Shown piece by piece: positions 3,418-48,533 of a stretch of DNA of 48,591 nucleotides. The notes beneath the pieces are model-generated. The model ran no database searches, was not told the DNA's origin, and saw only the letters and a program-made list of their open reading frames with translations. This DNA comes from Terriglobales bacterium. Lineage in GTDB: Bacteria > Acidobacteriota > Terriglobia > Terriglobales > Acidobacteriaceae. Within the stretch, counting starts at the first letter, position 1, and each line of letters begins with the position of its first letter. The DNA lies in NCBI GenBank assembly GCA_035764005.1, contig DASTZZ010000041.1, positions 1 through 48,591 on the forward strand, in the 5' to 3' direction. The translations under genes and the position numbers were made by a program.

Positions 3418-3462
3418 GGTCGTTCGCTAAGAATGAATCAAAGCCTGCAAAGGCTCCGCTTC

Positions 3463-8325: not shown

Positions 8326-8370
8326 GACGGTTTCGAAGTGATTGAGCGTGAGAGAAATGGACCCGAGTAC

Positions 8371-12423: not shown

Positions 12424-12553
12424 GATCGCTTCGGAATCATCATTGCTGATGAAAGAGTCAAGAAGGCACACGTAGAGGTTTCGCTCGTCAGAGGTCCAGC
12501 ATTGCTATCCATGGTCTGAGCGCGAAACGTACGAAGCCTCTGTGCTTCTAAAA

Positions 12554-12603
12554 TGACGGACGGGCCCGGCGGTTTTCACATCACCGTTCAGGCCCGTCCA
12601 TCA
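12554..12603 (-). terminator. Hairpin terminator at the end of the main operon
   Basis: A perfect 9-base inverted repeat, GGACGGGCC (12558-12566) and GGCCCGTCC (12591-12599), encloses a further partial stem (CGGT/ACCG) and a short AT-rich loop. TGA/TCA extends the outer stem after one mismatch. Read on the minus strand, the stem is followed by GTCATTTTAG, a weak T run. It lies 29 bases after the stop of the nucleoside-hydrolase-like gene and before the acyltransferase gene, the expected place for an operon terminator. Confidence 0.7.
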
Positions 12604-12631
12604 GCCCTTGTGGTTCGGTAGGAGTTATCCG

Positions 12632-14815
12632 TCAAGCTGCGAGTGAGACCATCGATTCAGGCCTGGCGTCCAGCGGTGTAAGTGAGAGGTCCGGCGGGGG
12701 AGGCATTAGCTGCCCGAGTATCGAGATCACAGTCAGATTGACTGAGTTGGAAGTGCCGCCGCCTGGAGTTGGGTTGAACACTGTAACCGAGTGCACTCCG
12801 ATCGAGAGGAGTCCGCCGCTAATCTTAGCTTGAACTTGAGTCGCACTAATGAAAGTAGTCGGTTGCGCTCCGCCGTCAATCTGGATGACTGAACCTTTCA
12901 CAAATCCACTTCCCGTAACCGTGAGCGTATAGCTGCTGGCCAGAGCTAAAGCCGGATTCGGCGAAACGCTCGAGATTGAAGGCACTGGGTTACTGACAGC
13001 TAACGTAACCGCAGATGATGTACCGCCGCCAGGAGCAGCATTGAAAACCGTAATCGATAGATTGCCCGCCGCAGCAATGTCAGATGCGGGAATCGATGCG
13101 GTCAACTGAGTAGTGCTGATAAAGGTAGTGGAACGGTTGGCTCCATTCACCCTCACGACAGATCCACCAACGAAGTTAGACCCATTCACCGTCAAGGTGA
13201 AGCCGGAGCCGCCGGCGGTCACGGTAGTCGGCGATATGGTTGAGAGCGAAGGCGCTGGATTATTAATTGTGAAAGTAAGGGCCGAGCTCGTTCCGCCGCC
13301 CGGAGTTGACGCCGTAATTGCTAACGATCCCGCAGTAGCAAGATCGCTGCTGGTAAGAGTAGTGGAGAGTTGTGTGCCGCTAATGAAGGTTGTGCTACGG
13401 GCGGCCCCATTAACTTGCAGAACTGAATTGCTCATGAAGCTGCTGCCGGTAGCAGTGAGCGTTATAGGTCCGCTGCCCGCAGTTGCAGCCGATGGTGAAA
13501 TGCTGCTGAGAGTCGGCGCTGCCGCAGCAACACTCAGATTCAGTGTGTTCGATGTCCAGTTCCCCTCGGAGGAGTTCGAAACTGTAATCGCTAAATTTCC
13601 TACTTGGCTGAAATCCGCTGCACTAAGCTGCACACTCAGCTGCGTGCCACTAACAAATGTTGTCGAACGACCGCTTCCATTTACCATAACCTGCGAGTCC
13701 TGGAAGAAGTTATTCCCGTTGATAGTGACAGTTTGGCCAGAGCTGCCAACAAACACGCTTGTCGGTGACAGGCTGCGCAAAATAGGCATGTTCGAGGAAC
13801 TCTGAATCAGCGGATTGAGGATGGCGGCCATATCACTGGCTGCAATTTGCTTCTTCAGATATGAGTGTCCCATTTGAGGAGAGGGCGACCAGAAGTTTTG
13901 GCCCCGGAACTGATCGTTTGTATCATCGATTGTAGTCTGGCCGTTGTAGCCTCCGATAGTGAAGTTCGTTCCCACACCGCCGCGAACGGCATAGAGGAGC
14001 GCTAACTGACCCCATGCCGTTGTAGTTGCTGAGGTCAGACCTTGAGCGCTGGCATATAGGTTATAGGCGTCCTTCACCGGATCTACAGTAGGATCGGACG
14101 TTGGCGAAGGACCGGTGGTTACATCAAAAGCAGTATCGGCGCCAATATTGACAATCTCGCCCGGCCAGTTTGCGTACACATAAGTGGCGGCATCTGTATC
14201 GGCTTCAAAGTTCCCCTCTCCTCCAGAAGGAAACCAGCCAGCGCTAGATACTAAGCGTCGAACCTTTTGAGCAACCAACTGCACTCCCGTGAGTGGACTT
14301 ATCGAATCTGGCTGGCTTTGAAGCAGGCCTTGCAATGGTTCATAGTATCCATTAGCCACGATGTACACGCTTCCATCAGGAGCATTGGCAAGAGCCTGTC
14401 TATATACAGTTACGGCATCGGGATAGTTGGCGCGCGTGTCGCCAGGCGTTCCAAACTGATTGACGATTTGCCGCGTATACGCACTCGTAGCTGAATTGTT
14501 TATGTTTGGCGTGCTCGCCTTGTTCGCACCAATCGGCACATTCGGATGTCCGTAGTAGGTGGCAATCGCTCGCATGGCAGGAGCGCTATAGTCATTGGCG
14601 GATGAACAGATGACTGCGAGGACGTTGACCTCGCCTCGATCGGCAAGAGCCCACATCATGGCATGATCACCGACGTCGTCGGCATCGATCGCCATATCAG
14701 AGTCAATGATCAGATTGACTGGCGGAGTCGGCTCCTGGAGCTGAGCATGTAGAGAAATGGAAAGGACTGTTAATACCGAAATGAATAATGTTGCGAGTGA
14801 GCGTGTCCGCCTCAT
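12632..14815 (-). CDS. Secreted nucleoside-hydrolase-like protein with four IPT/TIG repeats
   Basis: The 727-residue protein starts with a signal peptide (LATLFISVLTVLSISLHAQ). Residues ~33-335 resemble inosine-uridine nucleoside hydrolases: VNLIIDSDMAIDADDVGDHA carries the Asp cluster that binds calcium in that family, and VNVLAVICSSANDYSAPAMR follows as expected. Residues ~344-692 are four similar IPT/TIG Ig-like repeats, each with an ISP or LSP start and a STTFISGTQL-type core. A short tail follows with no recognised anchor. True enzymes of this family split N-ribosides in the cytoplasm or periplasm; here the domain is exported and the substrate is unknown. The start has an excellent ribosome binding site, GGGAGG at 14825-14830. 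It is the last gene of the operon, 66 bases after the deacetylase fusion. Confidence 0.82.
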   Translation of the reverse strand: MRRTRSLATLFISVLTVLSISLHAQLQEPTPPVNLIIDSDMAIDADDVGDHAMMWALADRGEVNVLAVICSSANDYSAPAMRAIATYYGHPNVPIGANKASTPNINNSATSAYTRQIVNQFGTPGDTRANYPDAVTVYRQALANAPDGSVYIVANGYYEPLQGLLQSQPDSISPLTGVQLVAQKVRRLVSSAGWFPSGGEGNFEADTDAATYVYANWPGEIVNIGADTAFDVTTGPSPTSDPTVDPVKDAYNLYASAQGLTSATTTAWGQLALLYAVRGGVGTNFTIGGYNGQTTIDDTNDQFRGQNFWSPSPQMGHSYLKKQIAASDMAAILNPLIQSSSNMPILRSLSPTSVFVGSSGQTVTINGNNFFQDSQVMVNGSGRSTTFVSGTQLSVQLSAADFSQVGNLAITVSNSSEGNWTSNTLNLSVAAAAPTLSSISPSAATAGSGPITLTATGSSFMSNSVLQVNGAARSTTFISGTQLSTTLTSSDLATAGSLAITASTPGGGTSSALTFTINNPAPSLSTISPTTVTAGGSGFTLTVNGSNFVGGSVVRVNGANRSTTFISTTQLTASIPASDIAAAGNLSITVFNAAPGGGTSSAVTLAVSNPVPSISSVSPNPALALASSYTLTVTGSGFVKGSVIQIDGGAQPTTFISATQVQAKISGGLLSIGVHSVTVFNPTPGGGTSNSVNLTVISILGQLMPPPPDLSLTPLDARPESMVSLAA

Positions 14816-14881
14816 CGGAATGTACCTCCCGGAAAGTGTTGATGTGAACTTGATATTGCAGAGAGTGATAGAGAATCGTGC

Positions 14882-16621
14882 CTACAACGGAGTGGAATCG
14901 AGACCTGATGTGTCGAAGTCAGGTGTGTGAAGTGCTGGCCGTGAGCCTTTCTGAGAAGAAGAGAGGGGAACGTGCTCAAAAACTCTGTCAGGTTTGCTCT
15001 TGCGACGTGAGAGCGATCTTTTCAGCGTATCGACTATGTCAAATATCCCTTGCAGCTCAAGCTCCAGCTCCCACGAGTTTGCATACAGGTTCTTCCGCCG
15101 CAGATGCTGGCCGTCGCCTCCTCCGCAATGGTTTTCGCCGCCAAAGCCAGAGACAAAGAACGGGTAGTTCGCTCGAACGATCTGCACTGCTTCCGCGGAC
15201 ATGTTTTCGGGTTGTCCAAACGGAAATGCGAAGAAGTTCACGGCTGTTCCTAAACGCTGTTCAAGATCGAACTTGGATCCGGCAATCTCAAAGTCCAGCC
15301 TGGCATTGTCTTTCGAGCCGCAATCAAAATGCGTGCGCGTGTGTGCCCCGAACTCGACCTGTCTGGAACTCCAGTAACGAAGCTGCTCCCAAGTTAGCGG
15401 CAGGGCTCCGCGAATTCCGTTCTCGATATCATGCTGAAACTCCTGTTGGTGAGTTACTGGTTCCGTTGAAATGAACATCGTGATCGGAACGCCCGTCTCT
15501 TCCGCAACTGCGCGAAGCGCTAAAAAGTTATCGGCGTATCCGTCATCGAAGGTCAAGACGACCGTTGGAGCGTCTACTTTGCCGGCTTTAAGCAACTCAA
15601 CTGCTTGGGCCAGGCTGACGATTCGATAGTGGCGTTGCAGAAATCTGACTTGTCGCCAAAACGCCTGTGTAGAAATACCCATGCGATGCGGGCGATCCGA
15701 TACCAAGTGGTGAGTGAGAATTGTGATCGGGTATTTGCGTCGGAGTCTCCTATACCAATTGCGAGTAATGATGAGCGGGGAGCAAAGTAGCAATGTATCC
15801 AGGCACAGCTTCCATCTTGGCCGGTGGCGGAACTGAGGACTAACATCACTGGTCGGAGTTGAAGAGAGTTGGAGTTGTTCGAGGTAAGGTGAAAATACCT
15901 GCTGTATCCAGTCGGCTAACTCGGCTGAGGTTTCGTCAGCAGTTCCATGGACAAGATGTTTGATACTTTCGATTGCGAGATCATCGCAGAGTAAATCTGC
16001 TTTGAGCGATACGCTTATCGGATCATCGTAAGGTTGGTGCGGCAGAGTGAGTTGCGCCAAGGTAAACGCACTCGAGTTTGCCGCGTTCCATTCGGCTGCA
16101 ATCGTCGTTCCTGCTGGCTCATGCCCTCGCTGCTCAGCAACATTTCGCGCTGCAATCCAACCTCGGCGCGGGATCGTGAGCAGGTTGTCAGGAATCCGTT
16201 GCGAGCTAAGGATGATCCCGAAATCGGGACGCCGTTCCACAACAAAGCTGGTCGTCTTCGAGTAGTCCCCATTCCATGGAATCAAAATGGGAATTCCTTT
16301 CGCATCGCACTTCTGAGCGAGATGCGCGGGAGTAAATGAGTGTATGTCGGCACGAACGCCATGAATACTAGACAGTGCTCTCTCTATGATGTGTTCGCAA
16401 AGGGAATGCAGGAACGAGAGTGGTCTCCGGAAGCGCGCGGTGCCCGAGTCGCTGCTGCGACCGTCCATAATCAGTTGCTGCTCCATCGGAAGCTCGCGTC
16501 TGGGTGCCTGCACGATTCCACAGATCTCGACATCCGGTATTTCCCGAGCAACGCGCTCGGCAAGAGTCCATGCTCGTGATGGCCGAGCGTTCGAAAAGAT
16601 AAGAATGCGGCAACTGCTCAT
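14882..16621 (-). CDS. Fusion of a formyltransferase-like domain and a NodB-type polysaccharide deacetylase
   Basis: The 579-residue protein has two parts. Residues ~1-200 look like the N-terminal Rossmann domain of formyltransferases (ILIFSNARPSRAWTLAERVA at the start, then RPDFGIILSSQRIPDNLLTI), but the usual catalytic Asn-His segment appears as GWIAARNVAEQRG, without the His. Residues ~295-520 form a carbohydrate esterase 4 domain: THHLVSD, TFDDGYADN with D359 and D360, and HTRTHFD with H427 and H431 as the metal-binding H-x3-H. This domain would remove N- or O-acetyl groups from a sugar. No signal peptide is visible, so it probably acts on the cytoplasmic side. The ATG overlaps the flippase stop by four bases. 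Deacetylase activity looks intact; the first domain may be degenerate or have another function. Confidence 0.83.
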   Translation of the reverse strand: MSSCRILIFSNARPSRAWTLAERVAREIPDVEICGIVQAPRRELPMEQQLIMDGRSSDSGTARFRRPLSFLHSLCEHIIERALSSIHGVRADIHSFTPAHLAQKCDAKGIPILIPWNGDYSKTTSFVVERRPDFGIILSSQRIPDNLLTIPRRGWIAARNVAEQRGHEPAGTTIAAEWNAANSSAFTLAQLTLPHQPYDDPISVSLKADLLCDDLAIESIKHLVHGTADETSAELADWIQQVFSPYLEQLQLSSTPTSDVSPQFRHRPRWKLCLDTLLLCSPLIITRNWYRRLRRKYPITILTHHLVSDRPHRMGISTQAFWRQVRFLQRHYRIVSLAQAVELLKAGKVDAPTVVLTFDDGYADNFLALRAVAEETGVPITMFISTEPVTHQQEFQHDIENGIRGALPLTWEQLRYWSSRQVEFGAHTRTHFDCGSKDNARLDFEIAGSKFDLEQRLGTAVNFFAFPFGQPENMSAEAVQIVRANYPFFVSGFGGENHCGGGDGQHLRRKNLYANSWELELELQGIFDIVDTLKRSLSRRKSKPDRVFEHVPLSSSQKGSRPALHTPDFDTSGLDSTPL

Positions 16622-18195
16622 TGCATTATTTCCTGAGCGGTGGAAGTCCGCTCGAACAGGGGCGACGGTAGTCTCTTAGCGGAAATGTTGAACAATTGTC
16701 GAAATACGGCAAGAAGCAAAGTTCGATCGCGAGAGGTTAGCCAGACGCACCAGCCACATATCGCCGCGGCCGTTAACATGAACATCCCCATGACTGCGCA
16801 GCGCACGAGCATGGGTCCTGGAGCAAAAGTGTGAATCAGCCAGCCGACCGTCAGTACGAGTGTCGATGTGATTGCAAATCCGATCCACAAGCGGATCGCG
16901 AATCTACTGTAGGATTCGTGAATTGTCTTACAAGTGGATTTGATTACGAAGTGGTAACAACATATCGCTTCGCCAAAAATCAGGCCAACCGGGACAGCCC
17001 AAGCTCCTAGTCGGTGTACGAGAACAGCGATGATACCGACTCCGATCAAGGCAGCGAAAAAGTATCCAACTGCCTGGGTGCCATGTCGATTGGTTGCAGT
17101 TCCGATCGCGGAACTCGCCGCCCAGGGTGTTTGGAAGACTAGAAGGACGAGAAAAAGCCGAAGCAAGACGATGTCGGGCTCAATGCGCCCACGCGTCCAC
17201 ACTGTAATGATTTGCCCGCCCTCGTACCAGACGCTCGCCGCAAGAGCGAGCGTGATCGCTGCCGTTGCCGCCACCGTGAGGCGGTGAACTGTTCTCAGCC
17301 GGTCGAACTCTCCGAGAACTTCCATGCGAGCAAAATCAGGGCAAAGGGCGAGGGTAATGCTATAAAGGACCTGACGAATCACGTCGATCATCGCTCTCGA
17401 AATAGACAAAACGGCGACCGCTAGTCCGCCGAGTAGAGCGGAAATAATGAGCGTGCTGCCCTGGAAAGCAATGAGATTGCCGACGAGCAGCAGCGCAAAC
17501 AGCAGGCTCGGATGTGCCAACTCCTTCAATATTGATACTCGCATCCCGGCCATGCCAGGAAACAGCGGTATACAGCGTCGGCGTAAATCGAACAGAACAT
17601 ACATAGCGATAAGAACGATTGTTAGTACCTGAAGCAATGCAATACTCAGCATTCCTCCGCCTAAAATCAGAACCAGCGCTGAGAGGAGCATTACAAGGAT
17701 CTGCTGCGCGTTGCCTATCCACTGAGTACGCGCTAGATTGCCGGTGGTCTGGTAGGTGGCGACAATGAGCCGTACGGGCAGCGACCACATTACGTAGATA
17801 GCGAGCAGAATTATTACTCTGTTGCCAGTGATGGCGTCTGTTACTTTCAGGCCAATCCAATGGGAGAGAGGCAGCAGCCGTGCAAGGACAATGATGATCA
17901 ATGTAACTAGCGTAGCTAAAGCAACGTAGAACCCGATCGTAGTATGCTGGATTCTCCGATACTCGTTTAGATCTCCTTTCGCATATGCCTGTGTCAAGCG
18001 GTTCACCGAAGCTTGTTGCATTCCAATATCAAGGCCTGATAGGTAGCTAACGGCCGCAAAAAGGGCCAGATACTCCCCATACAGGGTCGCCGACCAGTTC
18101 CTCAGGAACAAAGGAACCAGAATTATGGATCCCAGCCGTGGGATCATGTGTCCAACAAAAATGGCGTTTGCTGCAGGAAGAAGGCGACGAAGCAT
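16618..18195 (-). CDS. Polysaccharide flippase (Wzx-like, MOP superfamily)
   Basis: The 525-residue protein consists of about 12-14 hydrophobic segments in the pattern of oligosaccharide flippases. The N-terminus, with IPRLGSIILVPLFLRNWSA and LYGEYLALFAAVSYLSGLDI, matches the first two helices of Wzx/PST family proteins. It should turn the lipid-linked repeat unit across the inner membrane for assembly by the polymerase at 38822-40252. It is the only flippase candidate seen in the operon. It follows the phosphoribosyltransferase fusion by 26 bases and overlaps the deacetylase gene by four bases (ATGA), so these are likely co-translated. Substrate choice cannot be read from the sequence. Confidence 0.88.
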   Translation of the reverse strand: MLRRLLPAANAIFVGHMIPRLGSIILVPLFLRNWSATLYGEYLALFAAVSYLSGLDIGMQQASVNRLTQAYAKGDLNEYRRIQHTTIGFYVALATLVTLIIIVLARLLPLSHWIGLKVTDAITGNRVIILLAIYVMWSLPVRLIVATYQTTGNLARTQWIGNAQQILVMLLSALVLILGGGMLSIALLQVLTIVLIAMYVLFDLRRRCIPLFPGMAGMRVSILKELAHPSLLFALLLVGNLIAFQGSTLIISALLGGLAVAVLSISRAMIDVIRQVLYSITLALCPDFARMEVLGEFDRLRTVHRLTVAATAAITLALAASVWYEGGQIITVWTRGRIEPDIVLLRLFLVLLVFQTPWAASSAIGTATNRHGTQAVGYFFAALIGVGIIAVLVHRLGAWAVPVGLIFGEAICCYHFVIKSTCKTIHESYSRFAIRLWIGFAITSTLVLTVGWLIHTFAPGPMLVRCAVMGMFMLTAAAICGWCVWLTSRDRTLLLAVFRQLFNISAKRLPSPLFERTSTAQEIMQ

Positions 18196-18221
18196 GAAAG
18201 GGCTCGGGTAAACGGAAGTCG

Positions 18222-21200
18222 TTACTTCTTGAATGGAGCCAGGAATGAAAGGGAGTGCAGGTTACGAAGCAGAAGAGGCAGCGGTTTCTGATCGGCAGCT
18301 TCTATCAGGGAGATGAATAAGTTTTTTTCTTTCGGCCAATTCCGCTCGATGTCTCTGCAACGATCGCAGGAGCTGCCGTTCGGATGCGCGATTCGCTTCG
18401 CTATCTCCAACAAGCCTGGTTGGTACGAGGAGCGTGCGATGGAGCAGCCAAGTAGTTCAGCCTCCTTCCGACACGTCACATTTCCGGGAGCAAAGGACCG
18501 GTTCGCAACGCGGAACATCGCGAGATCAGGTTCGGAGTCCCCAATGGCGGCTACATCCGTTTTGGGCAAGCCGACGAGATCCAGCATTGCAAGCAATCCA
18601 ACACCTTTGTCGATGTTCTTCGCAACAATTGCAGTATCCAGGCCCGTGTGATGTATCCGAAGCCGGTCGGCTCCAAGCTCCGAGAGTAAGTCTTGAGCGA
18701 GGAGTGCGGGAACCGGAGCTGTACGGCCGTTCTGGTAAGTGAATACTCGGAGCGAATACAGATAATCGTCGTTGAGGAAACATCCGGGAATTCGTCGGAA
18801 GGCGTCTCGCGTTCTTTCCAACTCCTCTAGAGAATCTTTGTCGACGAGCACCCGTTGTCGATCCGAAAGTGCGTCCCACACAACTGCGCCATACTCAGCC
18901 ACCCCGCCAGCAAAACTGTATTCTCGGCAGTATTGCTTAACCTCACTAAGCGTTCGTGCTGTATTGACGGCGATACAGAAATGATGAGCGTGCAGCAGGG
19001 AGAGTGCTTTGATGCCGGCCGCAGTTGTGCAGGGAACTCCGAATACCATGCGATCGAGGACTCCGTCGATATCAGCGACGACCAATGGCGTATGCCAATA
19101 GATGTCCTTCGGTTTGCTGCAGAGTCTTCCACACTCCTTTATTGATTCTTTCACCAGGAAATTCCACGCAGAGATATATTGGCGATTTGCTTCACCTCGA
19201 ACGGAAAATAAGCGCGGTTGAGTTAAATCGTGATCTGCAAGGCTTTGCGCGCGTATACCTGCGAGAAATTTATTGAAGAAGAGCCGCTCGTCCACATTTG
19301 TGTCGCCGCTCTCCTGGATGTAGCGCTTGACCAGGCATTGAGAATCCGCATCCGACAGGCCAAACTCAAGCATAGCTGTTGCCAGATCAAAAGCAGGATC
19401 GGTAATGCCGAGCTCGTTTTTTCCAAAGCAATGATGTTCAAAGTCGGCTTTTTTCGGAACGTCGCCTGTAAGCCAATCACCGGGCGTCATCCTGCTATCG
19501 GTCATTACGGGCAAGAAGCGATTCTGTTCTGCAAGTCGCCTCCGCAACCATGGTCGTTTTGCAGCCGCGACGATACGAGATCCGTAAGCTCGAATCAGAT
19601 AACCCGATAGAAGTTCCAGACCCTTGTGCCGATCTTCGGTTACCAAGTCCAACGCGGGGTCATCTCTTAGCCAAAGGTGTTTCGCTCGTGCCGCAACATA
19701 GCTGGCGAGGTAATCAACGATGCCTGTGCTGTTCAGACTTGAGACAGCCTGGGTCTTTCCTTGCGGTAGCCACTCGGAAAACAGAATTCCGTCGCGAAGT
19801 CCGACAATAGGCGCAGTCCATTGACCCAATCGGTGACCTGCAATAAATGAGTGATAGCCTAGCCATCCCCAGCCGACGCTCTTCGCAAGAACATAGCGAA
19901 CTTCCTCTGATCCGTTCGAGTGTTTGACATGGACCTCGTAAATTCTTTTGAGGCGGTGATCAACACGCTCGGGAGGTCGATCTCGCCAGGTCGAATTCAG
20001 GTTTTTGAATTCACCGCCGCTGACGACGCGAACATCCGAATAGCCGCGTGCTTTAAAGTACTCGTCGAGCAGTACTTGCATCTTGGAAATAGAATCCAAC
20101 ACGCGGCATTTGTAACGCTCGGCAGGTTCAAGGCTTACTACGCGAATTTTTGGAAGGGATTGAAGGAGGCGCGAACTCTTCCAATCGGGAAGTGCCGGCT
20201 CAACAGGATTTAGGACAACTATATCCGCTTCAGCAAAGCCGGCTCTGCGAAGGATTGTGATTGTCTTCGCCAGCGTTTGTCCCGAGTGGACCGACTCGTC
20301 GGCGATCAACGCGCGGCACCTTTGGCTCGCGGCGCGCTCGAGCTCTCTCTGCTCCGAGCCTGTAATTCCCTTTGACGGTCGAATAGCAATCCAACGCGCA
20401 TCCGTATCTTTAGCTCTGAGGTAAGCGCAAGTCAACGGTGCCAGAAATGAACCAGCCGTACGCAATCCGACCACAATGGCAGGACGGACCGGATCGGCAA
20501 AGTCAAGCATGAATTTGCGCGCTAGTTCGAGACAGTCAGGAGTTGCAAAGTCTCTGGAACGGAAAAATGCTGGGATCTTTGGACGCAGGCATCCAACTGT
20601 TTTTCCAAATCGAGCCGGCAGCAGTTCTTTGAGCTGATCACGTTGCCTTAACGCCGATGATCGATCCGTATTGTTGACAAGCGCATGCTCAATAAAGTCA
20701 GTTACTGTATTCGCCCATACCTGCTTCCATCGAACCAGCCTCGCTAAGAACAACAGCCGAGTGCTGCTCCGCCATGCAAGGCCCTTGTGCGCCGCCCGAA
20801 TTGCCGGGCCAGCCAGAGGCAGAACTTTGGCCAGCTTTGAAAAATCAAAGACAGTTCCTAGTAGGTAGTCATCGATGGTGTCGGTGATTGTGCAGGACAA
20901 AAGAAAAATATTTATCGCTACTTCTGAGTACTGCCAACCGTTGACATGATCGAGTTTATTCAATTCCGATGCGAGCCGCTCGGCGACTTCGTTCAATCTG
21001 GGAAACGCATTTATGCTCCACGAATACCGGCTATAGAACGATTCTTCCTCGGCAAGAAAAGCCACGGGGAGGACTTTCGAGCATCTATCGCTGTCCTCAA
21101 CAGGAGCAGTCGCTTGTGGAAGCTCGATGTGAGGGAGAGTTGAGGTTGTTACGCTGGTTGCTACGCGTGAATCCCAGATGGGAGACATCCGTGAAAAAGC

Positions 21201-21257: not shown

Positions 21258-21292
21258 GATTACCTGCTTGTCTATAACTTTGTGGGCTTGAA

Positions 21293-26270: not shown

Positions 26271-26357
26271 TGGAGCCTTCGTTTGTGGTTAGAAATGCTG
26301 CTGGTTGGATCAGGAGAACTGGAAGCGCTGGAACTCGCAGAAAAGCATCAGCCCGGG

Positions 26358-27794: not shown

Positions 27795-27828
27795 AGACGT
27801 GAGAGTGAAGGGTTCTGCGCTTAGAAAC

Positions 27829-29091: not shown

Positions 29092-29103
29092 AGGAGTTCA
29101 ACC

Positions 29104-31038: not shown

Positions 31039-31077
31039 GAGATTGCTCCTGGTTATAGCAATAATGAATGGATCGTT

Positions 31078-31854: not shown

Positions 31855-31857
31855 TTC

Positions 31858-32559: not shown

Positions 32560-32571
32560 GAGAATCACCAC

Positions 32572-35074: not shown

Positions 35075-35082
35075 CGCCGAGT

Positions 35083-36764: not shown

Positions 36765-36847
36765 GTGGAGGGGGATAATGGACGAGAGATTCGAAACGAT
36801 GTGTGAATGACGGCGCTACGGCCGAAGGAGATTCCCCTCGAAGACCT

Positions 36848-37534: not shown

Positions 37535-37580
37535 TTGAACATCTCCCGGAGATTCACTGAATCATAATGATAAATCGAAC

Positions 37581-40252: not shown

Positions 40253-40272
40253 TAGGGAGAGCAGAGAACTAG

Positions 40273-41541: not shown

Positions 41542-41558
41542 CGTGAGTACAGGCAGGT

Positions 41559-43544
41559 TCAGGCGACTTCTGCCGCCACGCTCTTGTTGAAGTTCAAGAG
41601 CGAGGCGAGCTCTCTCTCGGAAGAATGCCGGCCATTGCAACGCTCTGGATTGTCTATGTAAGAAGCGGATTCAAGAAAATTTCTATGCCAGAGTTCAAAG
41701 ACCAGCAGATGCCAGAGTTCACAGGAGCGGTCGCGAACTCCATTCCGGTGTTCTTCAAGGCGTTGTCGCACTCCCGCCTCGCTTACATATCCGCGCTGGA
41801 TTGTTTTCGGTTCAAGAAGAACCTCTAACAATGCTGGCATCGGTTGTTGCCGGAACCAGTGAACCAGAGGCATGGAGAATCCCTGCTTTTGCCGGTATAG
41901 AACGTCTCCAGGCACTCCCAGCCGCTCTGCGAGTTTCTTGAGGATGTATTTCGACTGCCCATGGCGCAGCTTCCAGCGAGATGACAACCTGGCCGCCCAC
42001 TCCGCGAATTGGTGGTCAAGCAACGGAGCCCGCATTTCCAACGAGGTTGCCATACTCATGCGGTCCACCTTGGTCAGAATGTCTCCAGGCAAGTAAGTCT
42101 TCGTATCTAAGTAGAGCAGCTCGTTTAGTCGATCAGCGCCAGGCTGTGAGGTATATTTCTCAACCGTGCTGTATGGATTCATGCCATTCGCATGCTCTAG
42201 GAATTCTTCAGTAAAGAGCGATCGTTCACGATCACCGGCAGGTAATACCGAGATACTGTCCAAGTAGCGCATTCGTGACGGTAGTGAAAGATTGAAGACA
42301 AATCGTCTACCAAGCCAACCCATTGGAACGTGGGGATGGATATATTTGCGATACAAGGAGCCAATGCCAAACGGAAAGAGGGGAAGCAAACCAACCCAGC
42401 GGCGGCGCAAGTGCGAAGTGTAGCGCCCATATCCGGCTAGGAGCTCGTCGCCCCCATCTCCGCTAAGCGCGACTGTCACATGTTGCCGTGCCAACCTACA
42501 AACGTGGTAAGTGGGCACGATCGAGGAATCGCCAAACGGCTCTTCTAGAAATCCGGAGAGTGTGTTGACCGTTTGCTCAATCTCAGGTTCGACATAGAGT
42601 TCATGGTGTTCCGTATCAAACTTTCGAGCGACTGCCCGGGCGTGCTCTGCTTCATTGAAGTCTTCATGAGAAAAGCCAATCGAAAATGTTTTGACTTTAC
42701 CCACTCCAAGGCGGGCCATCAGTGCGACTACGGTCGAGGAATCCACTCCGCCGCTTAGGAGCGCTCCTAAGGGAACATCGCTGATCAATCGAATTCGGAC
42801 GGCCTCTGTTAGTTCGTGCTCCATCCGCTCCAGGCATTCTTCTTCTGAACGTGGCTCGTATTCACTGTAGACCGGCAGATCCCAATATTGTCGGACGCTG
42901 ATTTTGCCCTTGCTGAACTCGAGCAGGTGTCCAGGCGGGAGCTTCTCAATTTTCTTAAAGGCTGTGAGCGGATCCGGGATGTACCCGAAGCAGAAGAAGT
43001 TCGATATGCCTTCTGGACTTACATCGGCCAATTCCGGAGCGGCCGCCAGCAGCGTCTTTATCTCAGATCCGAACAGCAGCTGATCTTTAACAAACGCGTA
43101 GTGGAGCGGCTTTTTCCCGAAGCGGTCGCGGGCGAGTAATAACCGTTTGTTGACATCGTCCCATACTGCGAAAGCGAACATCCCTCGAAGGAACTGGACA
43201 CAATCGGCGCCGTACTGCTCATACAAGTGAACGATTACTTCTGTATCGCTGTTGGTGTAGAAGCGGTGGCCCTGTGCCTCAAGCTGCGGACGTAGCTCTG
43301 CGAAGTTATAAATTTCTCCGTTGAAGACGATCCAAACACTGCGATCTTCGTTGTGGATTGGTTGGTGACCACTGCAAAGGTCAATTATGCTTAGGCGGCG
43401 CATTCCCAGCCCAGCGCAATCGTTGACGTAAATGCCCTCGTCGTCCGGTCCGCGATGGACGAGCGTCTGACACATCCGATGAATGTCGGCTGCGTCGGCA
43501 ATATAACTGCCGGGGATGCCGATGATTCCTGCTATGCCACACAT
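41559..43544 (-). CDS. asnB: Glutamine-dependent asparagine synthetase-like amidotransferase
   Basis: The 661-residue protein has an N-terminal class II glutaminase domain beginning MCGIAGIIG, with Cys2 as nucleophile and RRLSIIDLCSGHQPI and FNGEIYNF following, and a C-terminal synthetase domain with the ATP-pyrophosphatase loop LLSGGVDSSTVVALMA and ALSGDGGDELLAGYGRY. Asparagine synthetase uses ATP and glutamine to amidate aspartate. Close relatives in polysaccharide clusters, including the exosortase-A group, are thought to amidate uronic acids or other carboxyls on the glycan, which fits this position better than a housekeeping role. It lies between the tyrosine kinase gene and the GT4 gene, with gaps of 35 and 17 bases. 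The family is certain; the acceptor is inferred. Confidence 0.92.
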   Translation of the reverse strand: MCGIAGIIGIPGSYIADAADIHRMCQTLVHRGPDDEGIYVNDCAGLGMRRLSIIDLCSGHQPIHNEDRSVWIVFNGEIYNFAELRPQLEAQGHRFYTNSDTEVIVHLYEQYGADCVQFLRGMFAFAVWDDVNKRLLLARDRFGKKPLHYAFVKDQLLFGSEIKTLLAAAPELADVSPEGISNFFCFGYIPDPLTAFKKIEKLPPGHLLEFSKGKISVRQYWDLPVYSEYEPRSEEECLERMEHELTEAVRIRLISDVPLGALLSGGVDSSTVVALMARLGVGKVKTFSIGFSHEDFNEAEHARAVARKFDTEHHELYVEPEIEQTVNTLSGFLEEPFGDSSIVPTYHVCRLARQHVTVALSGDGGDELLAGYGRYTSHLRRRWVGLLPLFPFGIGSLYRKYIHPHVPMGWLGRRFVFNLSLPSRMRYLDSISVLPAGDRERSLFTEEFLEHANGMNPYSTVEKYTSQPGADRLNELLYLDTKTYLPGDILTKVDRMSMATSLEMRAPLLDHQFAEWAARLSSRWKLRHGQSKYILKKLAERLGVPGDVLYRQKQGFSMPLVHWFRQQPMPALLEVLLEPKTIQRGYVSEAGVRQRLEEHRNGVRDRSCELWHLLVFELWHRNFLESASYIDNPERCNGRHSSERELASLLNFNKSVAAEVA

Positions 43545-43579
43545 AGTGAAACGCGACTGGGATTGCGAGTGAAGAAACG

Positions 43580-44392
43580 TCAGAATTCAGGGTCCAAGGA
43601 GGTTGATAGTTGCGGGCGATCATTTGAAGCTATTTGACGATGGGAAATATAGCCTCTGTAGTACTGCGAATAATAGCTCTGCTCAACGCCTTGCCAGTCG
43701 TTAGCCACGATACCCAGCAGCTTGAGATTTTCAGTTTTCAATGCTTCTTTCAAGAGCGGTTTCGGTGTATTGGCCTGCCGGACCACCAGCAGTGTGCCGT
43801 CGATATGGACTGCGAGAGCAGCGGAATCTGCAACCGGCACCAACGGAGGGGAATCGAGAACTATCCAATCGAACCATGTTGAGAACTCATTAAGCAGTTC
43901 AGAGAATCGATCGGACTGCAGGATTTCTAGTGGATGCTCGCTTCCTTGCCCTGCCGGTAAATACCAAAGCGGAACATCTTGCATTCTCCGCACGAAGCTG
44001 ATCGCAGAGGTTGACTGTCTCCACCACTCGGCAATGCCAGCTTGACCAGATGTTCCTAGCACATCTCGCAAACCCGATTGATGCAGGTCACAATCTACCA
44101 GCAGCGTACGTTGACCCTGGGCAAGTGTCACAGCCAGATTGGCAGAAACAACACTTTTGCCTTCTCCTTTAATGCTGCTGGTGATCAGGAGTGTTTTCAG
44201 TTGCTGCCGCTTTTGAAAGTTTCTCAGGCGGATCGCCAAGTTGCGGAACTTCTCAGCGGCGACGGAGCATGGTTCTGTAACGGCCACTAACTTTTGAGGG
44301 CGGGTCACAATTTGAATCGGCTCAGCGCAATCTAAGTCCAGACCTCCACTCTCAAGTCGCACAAGTTGAGGAATTCGCTCCGATGCAAACAT
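43580..44392 (-). CDS. CpsD/CapB-type bacterial tyrosine kinase (chain-length regulator)
   Basis: The product is about 270 residues from ATG 44392, 14 bases after the Wzz-like gene. It carries Walker A SSIKGEGKSVVSANLA, Walker A' LLVDCDLHQSG and Walker B DWIVLDSPPLVPVADS, the set that defines bacterial tyrosine kinases. The C-terminus has a tyrosine cluster (YYSQYYRGY), the usual site of autophosphorylation. It works with the Wzz-like membrane protein encoded just upstream; cycles of phosphorylation control polymer length and export. The kinase is a separate protein rather than fused to the Wzz part, as in Gram-positive CpsC/CpsD. Residues ~1-75 form a leader with no recognised motif. The longer frame to 44494 overlaps the upstream gene and is rejected. 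Confidence 0.9.
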   Translation of the reverse strand: MFASERIPQLVRLESGGLDLDCAEPIQIVTRPQKLVAVTEPCSVAAEKFRNLAIRLRNFQKRQQLKTLLITSSIKGEGKSVVSANLAVTLAQGQRTLLVDCDLHQSGLRDVLGTSGQAGIAEWWRQSTSAISFVRRMQDVPLWYLPAGQGSEHPLEILQSDRFSELLNEFSTWFDWIVLDSPPLVPVADSAALAVHIDGTLLVVRQANTPKPLLKEALKTENLKLLGIVANDWQGVEQSYYSQYYRGYISHRQIASNDRPQLSTSLDPEF

Positions 44393-44406
44393 TCGTTTGT
44401 GCACAA

Positions 44407-46020
44407 TTAGCCTCGGTAATAGGCAAGGATGGTAATAGCTGGAATCGCGGTGATGAGGAGAACAACGACCGCCAACTGCAAACGACCATGCCAACTGCGC
44501 CTTTCCTGTTCGGCGGGAGTTTGCAATAGAGGAATCGCAACTAAAATTGGAACCGGCGTGATGCTCAGCAGATCATCTTCGGACTTGAGCCGCTCGTCTG
44601 CGACTTCAATCAGCGCTGTGAGTCCAAGAGAGAGCACGGTGCCTGCGATCAGCCCGAGAAGACTGAACTTGAGCCGATTCGGAAAATAGGGCTTCTCGGG
44701 TAAGTTAGGAGGATCGATGACACGGAATTGCTCGCCTTCCTGACGTTTCTCAAGGTTCGTCGCCATGGCCGACTGCATTTTTTTGTTTAGTAATGACTCA
44801 TAGTTCGTTCGTGACTGCTCATGATCTCGAGTAATCGCCGCAAGTTGCTGCTCTCTGACTGGCGTCAGATTAAGCCGAGCCTGATAAGCCTCGATTTGTC
44901 CTTCTAGACGTCTGATTTCTTGCTTGCGATTCGCAATCTCAAGCTGGTTAGACTTGATTTGTCCATCGATTTGCAGCATAGGAGACATCGCCTGCAGATC
45001 GGAAAAGCTCTCCGGCCTTCCAAGTCCGTTGAGCGCGTCGTCTGGCTTCGCTGAGTCGGCCTGGGTGTCCATCTGCTGCTTCAGGCTTTCTGCGTCAGCG
45101 ATTTGTTTCTTGAGGCGCACAATGTCTGGATGCTTCGGCGTATCTCGCGAGCTAAGGTCGGCAAGCTGTGCTCTGAGCTTCTCCAATTCTTCGTCGATGG
45201 AAACTGGATTGAGGTCCGCATCGCCACGTCGAACGGTAAGTTGGCTTCGCAAGGTTTTGTATTGGCCGAGCAAAGACTGCAGATATAGCTTTTGCTGATT
45301 TGCCTGGTCGAGCGCTTCCGTGGCCGCCTGCAAGCGCGACTGAAGCCCGGAAAGTATTTGGACATTCGTCTGCAACTGTTCCGGCAATTCACCAAGATAA
45401 CGTGTCTTGAAGTCGCGCAACCGCTCTTCTTGTGCGGCAAGATTTTTCCGCGCGTCTTCCAACTGGTTTTCGAGAAATCGTGTAGTGTCTTCGGATAGTT
45501 GTTGGCGACTGCGCAGATTTTCTTCGATGAACAGCGAGCTCAATTTCTGGGTTACCTGCTGTGCGAGTTCCGGAGTTGCCGCAGAGTATGAAATTTTGAA
45601 CGCCGACAGTTCCCAAGGTCGTCCTGGCGCCTGCACAAGATCGATCTTGATGTCTCTACGCATTTGCTCCACAAGAGGATCAGGATCTACGACGTTCTGG
45701 CCGTTCTTATAGAGATGAAAGGCATTAATAATCGCCAGCAGCCGGGTGCGACTCAGAATCTGCTGAGTCATACTCTGAAGGCGTTGCTGCAGGTCAATGG
45801 CTACATTGGGAACGACGTATTGCTCTGGAATCTTCTGCTGCTCGACGATGATGACAGTTTCAGATCGGTACTTTGGCGAGATGAACCATGCTCCGAGCAT
45901 GGCAAGCGCCCAGATGACGAACAGCGGCAGAATGAGCCACCATTGGCGTCGGCGGGCAATCTGCAAATAGTCCTGCAGAGTTCGTGCGGGTGAGTTGTAC
46001 ACTGTATCCAATTCGCTCAT
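44407..46020 (-). CDS. Wzz/GumC-type polysaccharide chain-length determinant (co-polymerase)
   Basis: The 537-residue protein has a membrane helix near residue 30-50 (WLILPLFVIWALAMLGAWFI), a long periplasmic region rich in heptad-like Leu/Gln/Glu (~190-330 and ~370-420, predicted coiled coils), and a second helix (LKFSLLGLIAGTVLSLGLTA) after the family Pro motif PNLPEKPYFPNRL. A third hydrophobic segment closes the C-terminus. The N-terminal Wzz block includes LQDYLQIARRRQWWL. It sets polymer length and links the polymerase to the outer-membrane exporter. The kinase domain found in some relatives is encoded by the next gene instead. The ATG overlaps the barrel gene stop by four bases. The family is clear and it resembles the exosortase-associated Wzz group. 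Confidence 0.9.
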   Translation of the reverse strand: MSELDTVYNSPARTLQDYLQIARRRQWWLILPLFVIWALAMLGAWFISPKYRSETVIIVEQQKIPEQYVVPNVAIDLQQRLQSMTQQILSRTRLLAIINAFHLYKNGQNVVDPDPLVEQMRRDIKIDLVQAPGRPWELSAFKISYSAATPELAQQVTQKLSSLFIEENLRSRQQLSEDTTRFLENQLEDARKNLAAQEERLRDFKTRYLGELPEQLQTNVQILSGLQSRLQAATEALDQANQQKLYLQSLLGQYKTLRSQLTVRRGDADLNPVSIDEELEKLRAQLADLSSRDTPKHPDIVRLKKQIADAESLKQQMDTQADSAKPDDALNGLGRPESFSDLQAMSPMLQIDGQIKSNQLEIANRKQEIRRLEGQIEAYQARLNLTPVREQQLAAITRDHEQSRTNYESLLNKKMQSAMATNLEKRQEGEQFRVIDPPNLPEKPYFPNRLKFSLLGLIAGTVLSLGLTALIEVADERLKSEDDLLSITPVPILVAIPLLQTPAEQERRSWHGRLQLAVVVLLITAIPAITILAYYRG

Positions 46021-47315
46021 CGCTGTATCGGAACTTTCAGGTTGTAAACAAGAGATACAGACAGCCGATTGTGATTTGATAAGGAATTAACAAAAGGTGC
46101 CGAGAAGTTCGTTTCATGCACGTGCCAGTACTGGCACGCGATCGAAACCTTCTGATTCAGCGCGCGAGATATTCCACCGACGAACGATAGATAAGACAGC
46201 GGCGTAATTCCTGGTACAAGCGCAGCATTGCGATCGCCGGACAGTAATAACTGGGCATTCCAGCGCCTTGTGAGCTGACGCCGGACTTGTGCGTCAAAGG
46301 TGGTCAGTTGAACGACCCCCTGCAAGCCTGCCCCATCACTGATGCGGCGGGAAAATCCAAACCTTAAGTTCGTACGAGCGCTCGACCATAGAAAGTCTCC
46401 GCCCGAGGCCCAAGTCCACCTTGTTTTCGTCGAGAGCGGCTCTTCAGTCGAGAAGAAACTCGGGTTTGAATTGTCCCAATTCAGCAGACGCTGTGGGCCG
46501 GCGAAGAAGGATAGTTTCATGCTCGGCCTGAGGTGGAGGGTGTCTGTGTACAGGAAACTTTGCACAAGAGATCGCGAGCGGGGAGTTTTGGAGATGAGAT
46601 CGTCAACGTTGTAATCGAATCCAACCCAATGATGTCTCGTGAATTGATAAGACGCAAGCGCGTGGGTGCCGAACGACGTGGCGCCGCCAATTGGTTCTTG
46701 ATCAAGTGCGGAACTGTAGCTTACACGATAAAAGGAAGCACTTGCTCCGATGATGGTCCGATGAGACATTGCATAGCTCAGATCGGCTCCCGCCTGCTCG
46801 TTGCTCTCCTGGCCGGCAGCGAAGATCGAGTTGTTTGGTCGATCCAACACGCTTGATGCAGGTGCAAGCTCAGTTTCCCGCAACTGATCAAACGCATTTT
46901 TCGCCTTCAGCAGGCTTTCATGTATCCGTACTTGCACGCGTTTACTCGGCGTTAGGTGGAGACTACTGTCGAGCAGCTGTGATCGTGAATTGTAGATAGA
47001 AACGGGATAACCAGTTGAAAATCCCGGTTGATAATCGAAGGTCCATTGTGCGCGCGGAGCGGTCATAGACCAGCCAATAGAAGGTTCAATCACAGTAAGC
47101 AGATTGCCTTTTCTAATGTTGTTGTCATTCAATGCGTTATCGTCAAACTCGCCGGCGAATCTGATTCCCATCGATAGCCAGTCCTGGTTAGCAGCTTGCG
47201 CATTGCCGAAAGTCTCCAACATCTCGCCCGGTAGAAGAGGAGGAACAAACGTTTGTGCTGGCAAGCAGGCGTCGAGCGATAAAAGAATAATTGCCAGTTG
47301 CATTAACCTCGACAT
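46017..47315 (-). CDS. Outer-membrane beta-barrel protein of a polysaccharide export system
   Basis: The 432-residue protein starts with a signal peptide (LMQLAIILLSLDACLPAQ) and continues as alternating short amphipathic strands, many ending in aromatic residues, for example IEPSIGWSM, WTFDYQPGFSTGY, LSYAMSHRTIIGASASFYRV and HHWVGFDYNVDD. The C-terminus RLSVSLVYNLKV is strand-like. This pattern matches outer-membrane barrels of the kind found beside Wza- and Wzz-like genes in exosortase-type clusters. It is likely to form or support the exit path for the polymer. It lies 11 bases after the Wza-like gene. No enzymatic motif is visible. The barrel call comes from sequence pattern and context rather than a specific motif. 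Confidence 0.75.
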   Translation of the reverse strand: MSRLMQLAIILLSLDACLPAQTFVPPLLPGEMLETFGNAQAANQDWLSMGIRFAGEFDDNALNDNNIRKGNLLTVIEPSIGWSMTAPRAQWTFDYQPGFSTGYPVSIYNSRSQLLDSSLHLTPSKRVQVRIHESLLKAKNAFDQLRETELAPASSVLDRPNNSIFAAGQESNEQAGADLSYAMSHRTIIGASASFYRVSYSSALDQEPIGGATSFGTHALASYQFTRHHWVGFDYNVDDLISKTPRSRSLVQSFLYTDTLHLRPSMKLSFFAGPQRLLNWDNSNPSFFSTEEPLSTKTRWTWASGGDFLWSSARTNLRFGFSRRISDGAGLQGVVQLTTFDAQVRRQLTRRWNAQLLLSGDRNAALVPGITPLSYLSFVGGISRALNQKVSIACQYWHVHETNFSAPFVNSLSNHNRLSVSLVYNLKVPIQR

Positions 47316-47326
47316 ACCGGCCGAGT

Positions 47327-47956
47327 TTATGGAACCACAATTGTGTCGTGCGGCTGTAGCTGTACGTCTGCGCGTAAATTGTTGCCCTTGAGCACCTGTT
47401 TGTAGTTGAAGGGCAGGCGAAGGCGCGATCCATCTGCATTCACTCTGAGCACGTAGATCCTAGTTGTCCTGGCGAACTCGCGCAGGCCCCCCGCTGTAGC
47501 GATCGCATCCAGAACCGTCATAGGGCCAGCCATTACATACGAGCCTGGCTTCGTCACTTCTCCAATAATGTTGAACTTGTGGCTCTTGGCTTCCTGCACC
47601 AGAACGGTTACTTCAGGATTCGACAAGTATTCGACCAACTGATCCTGGATTTCTTTTTGAAGCTGAGTCGGAGTTTGTCCACTTGCCTTTACATCACCAA
47701 CCAATGGCAAGGAAATATTCCCATCCGGACGCACCGGCAAAGTTCGAGAGATCTCAGGCTCTTTCCAGACGTTGATGGCAAGGACGTCGTCTGGTCCGAT
47801 GAGGTATTCATTCGCCGAGTTTTGCACTTTGATGCTCGGCGACATTGCAGCAGCATCAGTATCCATCCCCGGTTTAGCTGTCTGGCCCAGAAGTTGAATA
47901 CTGAGTGCCCAACCGAGCAGCATGCAAGTAAGCCACTGAGAGATATTTCGTTTCAT
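47327..47956 (-). CDS. Polysaccharide export protein, Wza-like (Poly_export and SLBB domains)
   Basis: The product is about 209 residues from ATG 47956, which has GGAG (47965-47968) upstream; the longer frame overlaps the NusG-like gene. A signal peptide (WLTCMLLGWALSIQLLGQ) leads to a Poly_export domain with EYLIGPDDVLAINVWKEPEI and VRPDGNISLPLVGDV, then one SLBB domain with KFNIIGEVTKPGSYVM and TVLDAIATAGGL, ending LQPHDTIVVP. Such proteins form the periplasmic and outer-membrane channel for capsule or exopolysaccharide. No lipobox Cys is obvious, and the protein is shorter than E. coli Wza, with only one SLBB domain and no C-terminal helix, so the barrel protein of the next gene may provide the membrane pore. 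Confidence 0.91.
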   Translation of the reverse strand: MKRNISQWLTCMLLGWALSIQLLGQTAKPGMDTDAAAMSPSIKVQNSANEYLIGPDDVLAINVWKEPEISRTLPVRPDGNISLPLVGDVKASGQTPTQLQKEIQDQLVEYLSNPEVTVLVQEAKSHKFNIIGEVTKPGSYVMAGPMTVLDAIATAGGLREFARTTRIYVLRVNADGSRLRLPFNYKQVLKGNNLRADVQLQPHDTIVVP

Positions 47957-47987
47957 TTCATCAGCTCCACGAGTCGCCTGTGGCGTC

Positions 47988-48533
47988 TTAGAGCGGCTCG
48001 ACATCGTACCCCTCAATCGCGATGGATAGGGATCTGTGAATGCTCTCCACGGAAATTACAAGTCGCCGCTGTCCGTTAGTTACGAGAATGCCTTCCACTC
48101 CGTCCAGAGCTCCACCACGCACGCGCACTCGTTGACCTACTTTGAGAAACGGATATGGTGAGAGTGAAATCTTTGTGGCTAACAACGTGCGAATATCTGT
48201 GATCTGGGAGTCAGAAATCGGCAGGGCCTCGCGTTGAGTCCCGACTAAACTCAGAGCTCCCCAAATGCTCAATACTGCAAGACGTGCTCGTCCATTGAGC
48301 TCAGTGCGAATAAAGACATACCCCGGGAATAGAGGAACCTGCACCACCTTGCGGCGATCGCTCCAGTGGTGTATTTGATTCATCAGGGGAAGATACGATT
48401 CGATGCGCTTCTCGTTCAGCTCGGCCGTGACTTTCTTTTCGTGTTTTGGGCGAGTCTGTACTGCATACCACTGAGCCTGAGTTAAAACGGAAAGAGTTGG
48501 TATCTGATTCGGTATTACCTGAACGCTGCCCAT
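47988..48533 (-). CDS. NusG-family transcription antiterminator (RfaH/UpxY-like), first gene of the operon
   Basis: The 181-residue protein has the NGN domain (QWYAVQTRPKHEKKVTAEL, then SYLPLMNQIHHWSDRRK and VPLFPGYVFIRTEL) and a C-terminal KOW domain (LKVGQRVRVRGGALDGVEGI). Specialised NusG paralogues such as RfaH and UpxY bind RNA polymerase and suppress early termination in long polysaccharide operons. Placement as first gene of a same-strand run of 26 genes fits this role exactly. The housekeeping NusG would be expected beside secE and rplK, which are absent. The ATG at 48533 is preceded by GAGGGCGAAGCT. The promoter and any pause or leader element lie in the last 58 bases of the window or beyond it. 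Confidence 0.9.
   Translation of the reverse strand: MGSVQVIPNQIPTLSVLTQAQWYAVQTRPKHEKKVTAELNEKRIESYLPLMNQIHHWSDRRKVVQVPLFPGYVFIRTELNGRARLAVLSIWGALSLVGTQREALPISDSQITDIRTLLATKISLSPYPFLKVGQRVRVRGGALDGVEGILVTNGQRRLVISVESIHRSLSIAIEGYDVEPL

Follow-up and report, generated by a model that had tools for sequence, protein, structure and literature searches.

What is a block of nonribosomal peptide synthetase (NRPS) genes doing among genes for polysaccharide export? The question is raised by contig DASTZZ010000041.1 (48,591 nucleotides, here called the window), which was taken whole from the 131 contigs of the 5.1-Mb, 97.5% complete genome of a Terriglobales bacterium (GCA_035764005.1; G000). Twenty-six minus-strand open frames follow one another from 48533 to 12632, with many short overlaps and a maximum gap of 87 bp (separating two condensation-domain genes listed below, those of the free C and C-A-T proteins), beginning with a NusG paralogue (UpxY family, 125.8 bits) and ending in a hairpin (z −4.6); an earlier note on this DNA was borne out on these points. 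The new part of the locus is an amino-acid cassette of a phosphopantetheinyl transferase (PPTase), two NRPS proteins, a free condensation protein, a cytochrome P450 and two alpha/beta hydrolases. Glycan genes and this cassette recur together, but their pairing is not obligatory. Bacterial surface glycans commonly carry amino-acid substituents, and few of the enzymes responsible for attaching them are known. The locus points to a sugar coat that bears a small amino-acid unit, and we are evenly divided on whether the middle block makes a carrier-bound aminoacyl unit for an exported Wzx/Wzy-type polysaccharide of an XrtA-like, exosortase-less kind.

The cassette and its motifs

The cassette lies between phosphoglycosyltransferase and sugar genes on its upstream side and flippase and deacetylase genes on its downstream side, all on one strand. 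Its genes, in the order of reading, are given here (A, adenylation domain; T, carrier domain; C, condensation domain).

31078..31854, minus strand: 4'-phosphopantetheinyl transferase (PF17837, PF01648)
29104..31038, minus strand: NRPS A-T didomain protein, predicted to load Leu, pocket DAWFLGNVV (PF00501/PF13193/PF00550)
27829..29091, minus strand: cytochrome P450 of a subfamily usually found beside the Leu A-T gene (PF00067)
26358..27923, minus strand: stand-alone C protein with motif HLSIVDG, in which the second His is missing (PF00668)
23022..26270, minus strand: NRPS C-A-T protein, predicted to load Ser, pocket DVWHISLVD, C motif HQIVFDA (PF00668/PF00501/PF00550)
22228..23220, minus strand: alpha/beta-hydrolase-fold protein, XrtA hydrolase-2-like, GxRxG replacing the nucleophile elbow (TIGR03101, 118.6 bits, below the cut-off of 202.8)
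21293..22231, minus strand: alpha/beta hydrolase, XrtA hydrolase-1-like, Cys nucleophile in GxCSG (TIGR03100, 102.7 bits, below the cut-off of 168.5)

The PPTase, two NRPS proteins, free C protein and P450 that the earlier note had placed inside the run were all present by Pfam, as were the A and T domains. It had also called the NRPS module complete. This holds only for the C-A-T domains: in the A-T and C-A-T proteins Pfam recognized neither a thioesterase nor another release domain, and the HHxxxDG motif is altered in both C domains. The cassette was also considered as the first module of a large NRPS cluster, a candidate rejected because the window holds no further NRPS module.

The A-T pocket DAWFLGNVV is what we take to be a leucine code. 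Among 35 A-T homologues (A-T proteins with a readable pocket, exclusive of C-A-T proteins, other adenylation rows and unreadable fragments such as that of G430), the pocket was identical in 30, one position off in three and two positions off in two. The C-A-T pocket DVWHISLVD presumably specifies serine, and the C-A-T pockets of two relatives (G034 and G351, DILQLGM-type) are, on the same assumption, glycine-like.

Both C domains of the window lack the second His of HHxxxDG (HLSIVDG in the free C protein and HQIVFDA in the C-A-T protein). Where the motif could be read, in 51 C domains overall, this residue is missing from 18. These 18 include every one of the 10 free C proteins that are at least 40% identical to the window's (its own among them), which have HL or HQ, and seven of the eight C-A-T proteins next to a free C protein (the exception is G433). 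His-less C domains in long frames came, in 7/7 cases, from loci that also have a His-less free C protein. Compared with solved structures, the free C protein scored about 182 bits against 2jgp and 8z0q and 140 bits against an X domain; the X-domain structure 4tx2 was among its solved relatives (E = 8e-40). No accompanying paper was found for 8z0q, its best solved relative, a "special condensation domain."

In the hydrolase-1-like protein, Cys114 and His265 were invariant in seven of seven aligned homologues, and the GxRxG pattern of the hydrolase-2-like protein was also present in locus L024. The pair lies downstream of large NRPS clusters in L139/L140 (G101:C25) and L141 (G108:C22). Because it follows NRPS clusters there without a polysaccharide marker in the fetched stretch, a role in release or transfer is suggested. 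A scan of named genomes with hydrolase 2 yielded at least four loci; three were mapped with the window proteins, and the cassette was in none of them. Hydrolases 2 and 1 are adjacent near sugar genes in a Methylibium locus, and in a Sphingomonas locus hydrolase 1 lies near Wza, Wzz, a kinase and an adenylating protein.

Recurrence beside polysaccharide genes

The cassette was counted through its P450 across 399 genomes of the class, a place being accepted if the match was full length and at least 53% identical; partial places (G237:C102, G115, G233, G157 and G386) were excluded. The subfamily occupied 36 places at 34 loci in 30 genomes. Four further loci (G003, G034, G050 and G027) came from a C-A-T search outside the class sample and were counted only in the tree and motif tables. 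Together with these, the subfamily formed one clade (support 100/99) against seven control P450 rows, which came from six stretches, two of them short (8 and 13 kb); apart from one NusG, the six control stretches yielded no NRPS domain and no polysaccharide marker. An A-T gene lay within 1 kb of the P450 at 31 of the 34 loci, divergently at two of these; the exceptions were G028, G345 and G258:C442.

Polysaccharide markers (Wza, Wzz, a Wzy orthologue or a phosphoglycosyltransferase in the fetched sequence) accompanied the A-T/P450 pair at 13 of the 34 loci and were not found at 12 with at least 20 kb fetched; nine contigs were too short. Markers were on the strand of the cassette at 12 of the 13 positive loci. 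Among the matches listed, Wza lay within 20 kb of the cassette at 10 of 34 loci, compared with about 3.7% of random points (a rate derived from 175 Wza genes in 187 Mb; P = 3e-7). Counted once per genus, 7 of 20 were near Wza (P = 5e-6, or 0.004 in a conservative variant with three loci per genus). The distances for G011, G375 and G433 were taken from separate locus mapping rather than from the class-wide Wza listing, whose totals are the sole basis of the chance rate. On the P450 tree the polysaccharide label required nine changes, at least four of them on supported branches; thus, the cassette joined or left polysaccharide loci several times.

The glycan genes downstream of the cassette were found with it again in G003, G004, G034 and G351, as they were, on separate contigs, in G237. 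Orthologous upstream sugar genes accompanied it in G004, G034 and G351; in G003 they had diverged (27 to 40%), and a phosphoglycosyltransferase was not found beside the cassette there. As to synteny in relatives, then, the join of the cassette to its downstream genes is conserved, whereas a single 36-kb run is not the rule: among the loci examined, it was met uninterrupted in G000 only. The export block of G034 is parted from the block running from Wzy to the NRPS genes by several genes, among them one on the plus strand; that of G003 and of G004 was located on a different contig, possibly but not necessarily adjacent.

Other genera have a related cassette too, there nested within a polysaccharide operon of another build. 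In G375, NusG, Wza, Wzz, an AAA protein, a kinase-like protein, an acyl-CoA dehydrogenase, an adenylating ligase and a phosphoglycosyltransferase precede the cassette, and the phosphoglycosyltransferase is followed by an A-T protein, a P450-C-A-T-thioesterase fusion, a sulfotransferase and Wzy, all on one strand. The earlier view that the peptide part is no chance neighbor gains from this recurrence (G003, G004, G034, G351, G237 and other genera) and must be limited in that the association is not obligatory. Independent occurrence of the two blocks, which that note had named as evidence to the contrary, was found in part, both as informative cassette loci without a marker in the fetched sequence (12/25) and as orthologous glycan loci without the cassette.

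Relatives of the window's Wzy, 40 to 54% identical, were present in 11 other genomes (12 of 399 with its own), and the P450 subfamily was absent from 9 of these 12. Eight cassette-less sister loci were fetched, and one (G344, 6.5 kb) was too short, leaving seven. Five of the seven (G229, G221, G245, G316 and G098) contained a stand-alone adenylation protein with a discrete carrier, and near the deacetylase the first four also encoded a carbamoyltransferase, a luciferase-like monooxygenase and a GNAT protein. Loci of this type thus often include carrier-bound amino-acid activation, as an interchangeable rather than a fixed part. At L142 (G229:C247, 4355-12328), a polysaccharide locus, the deacetylase, luciferase-like monooxygenase, adenylation protein, carrier, GNAT protein and carbamoyltransferase stand in a row. 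Among the open-access titles and abstract openings listed for NRPS parts with exopolysaccharide or surface-polysaccharide genes, none described such a locus; it may be published elsewhere.

A possible aminoacyl route and its rivals

Gene content and order, motifs, pocket residues and recurrence beside other polysaccharide genes are observed; from these we infer the following route. The PPTase would arm the carrier domains. Leucine would be loaded by the A-T protein and, still carrier bound, hydroxylated by the neighboring P450, most likely at carbon 3. The C-A-T protein would load serine, and leucine would be combined with it or used beside it. One or both His-less C domains, together with the Cys alpha/beta hydrolase, would then transfer the group, aminoacyl or dipeptidyl, to an amino sugar in the polymer or its repeat unit, with the free amine likely supplied by the deacetylase. 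Each element of the route is a prediction, from the identity of the amino acids and the order of steps through hydroxylation, acceptor and attachment to the product's staying on the glycan.

Parts of this chemistry have precedents. C domains sometimes remain active after losing the second His (PMC11546977), and for streptothricin ORF18 a C domain with the motif HQxxxDM is reported to couple a carrier-bound peptide with an amino sugar (PMC11546977, PMC4351081). The P450 PlyR is proposed to act on carrier-bound leucine (PMC3943440), and X domains, with HRxxxDD, recruit P450s (PMC11546977). A more specific and more tentative version holds that His-less C domains move (3-hydroxy)leucyl-seryl units onto exopolysaccharide amino sugars, that the adenylation module is swapped between loci (a stand-alone A protein, carrier, luciferase-like monooxygenase and GNAT protein against A-T, P450, C and C-A-T) and that the class contains peptide-coded glycans; we incline against it in this full form.

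Several observations weigh against an aminoacyl unit destined for the polysaccharide. At 12 of the 25 informative cassette loci, the fetched sequence yielded no polysaccharide marker; at one positive locus (G261) the markers are on the other strand, and three others (G028, G258 and G430) count as positive through one marker each. The near-identical G144 and G333 carry the same pair of His-less free C and C-A-T proteins, with no marker in the 30 kb and 27 kb fetched, respectively (in G333 the nearest Wza among the matches listed is 22.6 kb from the P450), so that the His-less pair tracks the A-T/P450 cassette and not clearly the polysaccharide. No marker was found in the fetched stretches of the G101 and G108 hydrolase/NRPS loci. 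Finally, sister glycan loci without any NRPS part exist, and an adenylation protein with a carrier was not found at the sister loci of G187 and G402.

The marker-free loci, several of which have longer C-A-T proteins, would fit a cassette whose product (hydroxyleucyl-serine or one of its derivatives) is a small metabolite that the hydrolases set free; the cassette would be only coregulated with the polysaccharide, and the product perhaps retained in the matrix. The thioesterase fused to the P450-C-A-T protein of G375 and the hydrolase pair after the multimodular NRPS clusters of G101 and G108 point the same way. This explanation is doubtful, though it deserves to be taken seriously: the run has no Pfam-recognized thioesterase or dedicated small-molecule exporter, the cassette is repeatedly nested among glycan genes, and five of seven sister loci without it have a carrier-based adenylation module. 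That the cassette is a chance or selfish neighbor, inserted in a glycan operon and using its transcription only, would agree with the separate occurrence of glycan and NRPS blocks and with the changes of context along the P450 tree. This is made improbable by the enrichment near Wza genes, by the nesting of the cassette in polysaccharide operons of at least two different builds and by the constancy of its downstream genes across G003, G004, G034 and G351.

A narrower objection concerns the C domains, which might form no bond and, like X or interface domains, only recruit the P450 to carrier-bound leucine, leaving single amino acids and no dipeptide. The consistent loss of the second His (10/10 free C proteins, 7/8 adjoining C-A-T proteins and all seven His-less cases in long frames) speaks for it, as do the overlap of the free C and P450 frames and the recruitment of P450s by HRxxxDD X domains (PMC11546977), an X-domain structure (4tx2) being among the solved relatives of the free C protein. 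Yet the first His and the Asp are kept, the motifs are nearer to the HQxxxDM of streptothricin than to HRxxxDD, the same P450 is accompanied at many loci by an HH-type C domain without any free C protein, and the free C protein, the only one compared, scored higher against 2jgp and 8z0q than against the X domain. We regard recruitment alone as unlikely. Under the preferred reading, a carrier-bound aminoacyl unit for the exported polysaccharide, amino-acid activation genes become exchangeable parts of polysaccharide operons with predicted Leu, hydroxy-Leu, Ser or Gly. This makes the question testable: the predicted residues can be sought in the glycan, and the His-less C proteins become candidate glycan aminoacyltransferases.

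The glycan half and its known relatives

The genes on both sides of the cassette and the hairpin that closes the run are as follows.

47988..48533, minus strand: NusG paralogue, UpxY family antiterminator (NCBIfam NF033644, 125.8 bits, cut-off 100)
47327..48016, minus strand: Wza-type export protein, XrtA-like (PF02563, SLBB; TIGR03027, 160.9 bits, below the cut-off of 180)
46017..47315, minus strand: unassigned protein with a signal-peptide-like start, its place between Wza and Wzz being conserved (43% identical orthologue in G034)
44407..46020, minus strand: Wzz-type chain-length determinant, XrtA-like (TIGR03007, 272 bits, below the cut-off of 278.9)
43580..44494, minus strand: tyrosine autokinase (TIGR01007, 112.9 bits, over the cut-off of 108; TIGR03018 below cut-off)
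41559..43544, minus strand: asparagine-synthase-like amidotransferase, XrtA-like (TIGR03108, 678.7 bits, below the cut-off of 816.9)
40273..41640, minus strand: GT4 glycosyltransferase (PF00534; TIGR03088 below cut-off)
38822..40252, minus strand: Wzy-like polymerase/ligase (PF04932; TIGR03097 below cut-off)
37581..38825, minus strand: GT2 glycosyltransferase (PF00535)
36848..37534, minus strand: SIS isomerase, GmhA-like (PF13580; TIGR00441 below cut-off)
36075..36764, minus strand: phosphoglycosyltransferase, WbaP-like (PF02397)
35083..36078, minus strand: GalE epimerase (TIGR01179 over cut-off)
33629..35215, minus strand: second phosphoglycosyltransferase (PF02397, PF13727)
32572..33660, minus strand: GHMP sugar kinase, HddA-like (PF00288/PF08544; NF049969, 214.7 bits, below cut-off)
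31858..32571, minus strand: HAD phosphatase/mutase (PF13419)
18222..21257, minus strand: 1011-residue protein with a HAD-like C-terminal part (PF08282, TIGR01487; 43 to 57% identical orthologues in G003, G004 and G034)
16618..18195, minus strand: Wzx-like flippase (NF041503, weak, E = 3.7e-7, below cut-off)
14882..16621, minus strand: polysaccharide deacetylase (PF01522)
12632..14815, minus strand: secreted repeat protein, choice-of-anchor Z (NF058597, four repeats; locus-end orthologues in G003, G004, G034 and G351)
12558..12599, minus strand: GC-rich hairpin, terminator candidate with a weak U tail (−29.3 kcal/mol, z −4.6 against 200 shuffles)

Wza, Wzz, Wzy, Wzx and phosphoglycosyltransferase, the Wzx/Wzy-dependent set, are thus all in the run, the Wzx call being weak and below cut-off. 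The GmhA-like, HddA-like and HAD genes suggest heptose chemistry. The 46017..47315 protein had no Pfam or NCBIfam match; an outer-membrane barrel is our guess. No family match covered the 1011-residue protein outside its HAD-like part, and its structure prediction, from a four-row alignment, was poor (mean predicted local distance difference test score, 48.6); by eye, it has a phosphoribosyltransferase-like motif, DESVHSGQT. The secreted repeat protein, in which a nucleoside-hydrolase-like N-terminal start was read by eye before the four choice-of-anchor-Z repeats, may bind or modify the coat.

One transcript over all 26 genes is plausible. The first ATG of the NusG paralogue is at 48533, and its frame stays open up to the contig end, which lies 58 bp upstream of that start; the promoter and leader of the run are therefore not visible. 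The closing hairpin has no long U tract, only four U residues beginning four bases on, and a same-strand acyltransferase gene begins 160 bp past the run end. A terminator-like hairpin also lies between the free C and C-A-T genes (26372-26347). Terminator-like sites numbered 25 in one half, against 18.2 (standard deviation [SD], 4.0) in shuffled sequence, and 20 in the other, against 17.4 (SD, 4.8); promoter scans gave 9 against 13.6 and 9 against 11.6. Without a clear excess over shuffles, neither scan is informative on the run. The window had no Rfam match at the gathering threshold and no tRNA match.

Past the hairpin, three GT4-type genes, an FkbM methyltransferase gene and an acyltransferase gene occupy 1463-12471 on the same strand, so that glycan genes extend beyond the 26-gene run. 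A secreted repeat or propeller-like protein (a reading by eye), truncated by the contig start, lies at 2-1438; it has relatives between the two glycan blocks of G034 and at the ends of contigs G003:C138, G004:C34 and G004:C40. Elsewhere in G000, two more NusG paralogues (G000:C124:90598-97041 and G000:C3:4692-6675) lie a few kilobases from Wza genes, one of them also near a phosphoglycosyltransferase gene; these sites are probably further polysaccharide loci with their own antiterminators.

The earlier note had not recognized the system as described. For the glycan half this does not stand, as it is a recognizable XrtA-like exopolysaccharide locus. For eight proteins (export protein, chain-length determinant, tyrosine kinase, amidotransferase, GT4, Wzy-like protein, hydrolase 2 and hydrolase 1) the top NCBIfam match was an XrtA/exosortase-A model (TIGR03027, 03007, 03018, 03108, 03088, 03097, 03101 and 03100, respectively), and none of the eight reached its cut-off. 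Four further run proteins, the phosphoglycosyltransferases and both adenylating proteins, matched TIGR03013 or TIGR03098, XrtA models that stood lower down their match lists and were likewise below cut-off. Exosortase (PF09721) gave no match in G000 or in G034 and was present in 26 of 36 genomes searched. At exosortase-bearing loci of the same class (G433:C1 and G011:C26), the amidotransferase was 58 to 62% identical and the other matched genes 27 to 48%. A true XrtA locus was rejected since no exosortase was found in G000. Because the top matches fall below cut-off and that genome yielded no exosortase, the glycan half is, by sequence kinship, a divergent exosortase-less cousin of the XrtA/PEP-CTERM exopolysaccharide loci, of a kind already known.

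The known systems each resemble part of the locus. With the XrtA/PEP-CTERM (EpsH) locus it shares matches to Wza, Wzz, the kinase, amidotransferase, GT4, Wzy-like protein and hydrolases 1 and 2; it differs in its sub-cut-off scores, the lack of a detected exosortase and the full NRPS/P450 cassette alongside. The words "ligase" and "hydrolase" have no occurrence in the available part of the text of the PEP-CTERM/EpsH paper (PMC1569441). The UpxY-family paralogue of the window, which scores over the NF033644 cut-off, is the first gene of the visible polysaccharide run. In Bacteroides-type capsule operons, an UpxY-type NusG paralogue is habitually the first gene; the likeness, at the level of gene content, lies in such a paralogue opening a long polysaccharide run, and the XrtA-like genes and NRPS cassette set the present locus apart. 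In the DltA/DltC and AlmE/AlmF systems, an adenylated amino acid on a carrier modifies a surface polymer. Carrier-held adenylated amino acids for a surface polymer are predicted here as well, with the differences that there are two adenylation proteins, a P450 and C domains and that no DltB or AlmG homologue was recognized in the run by Pfam or NCBIfam. PlyC/PlyQ/PlyR of polyoxypeptin and NikQ resemble the cassette in pairing a P450 with an amino-acid-carrying protein (PMC3943440); here the pair is set in a polysaccharide operon, without a depsipeptide assembly line. Streptothricin ORF18, compared by motif (PMC11546977, PMC4351081), shares a carrier-bound aminoacyl or peptidyl group and a C domain without the second His. 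Its acceptor is an amino sugar, whereas here the sugar acceptor, if any, would sit in a polysaccharide; streptothricin uses beta-Lys, and here Leu and Ser are predicted and a P450 and a deacetylase are added.

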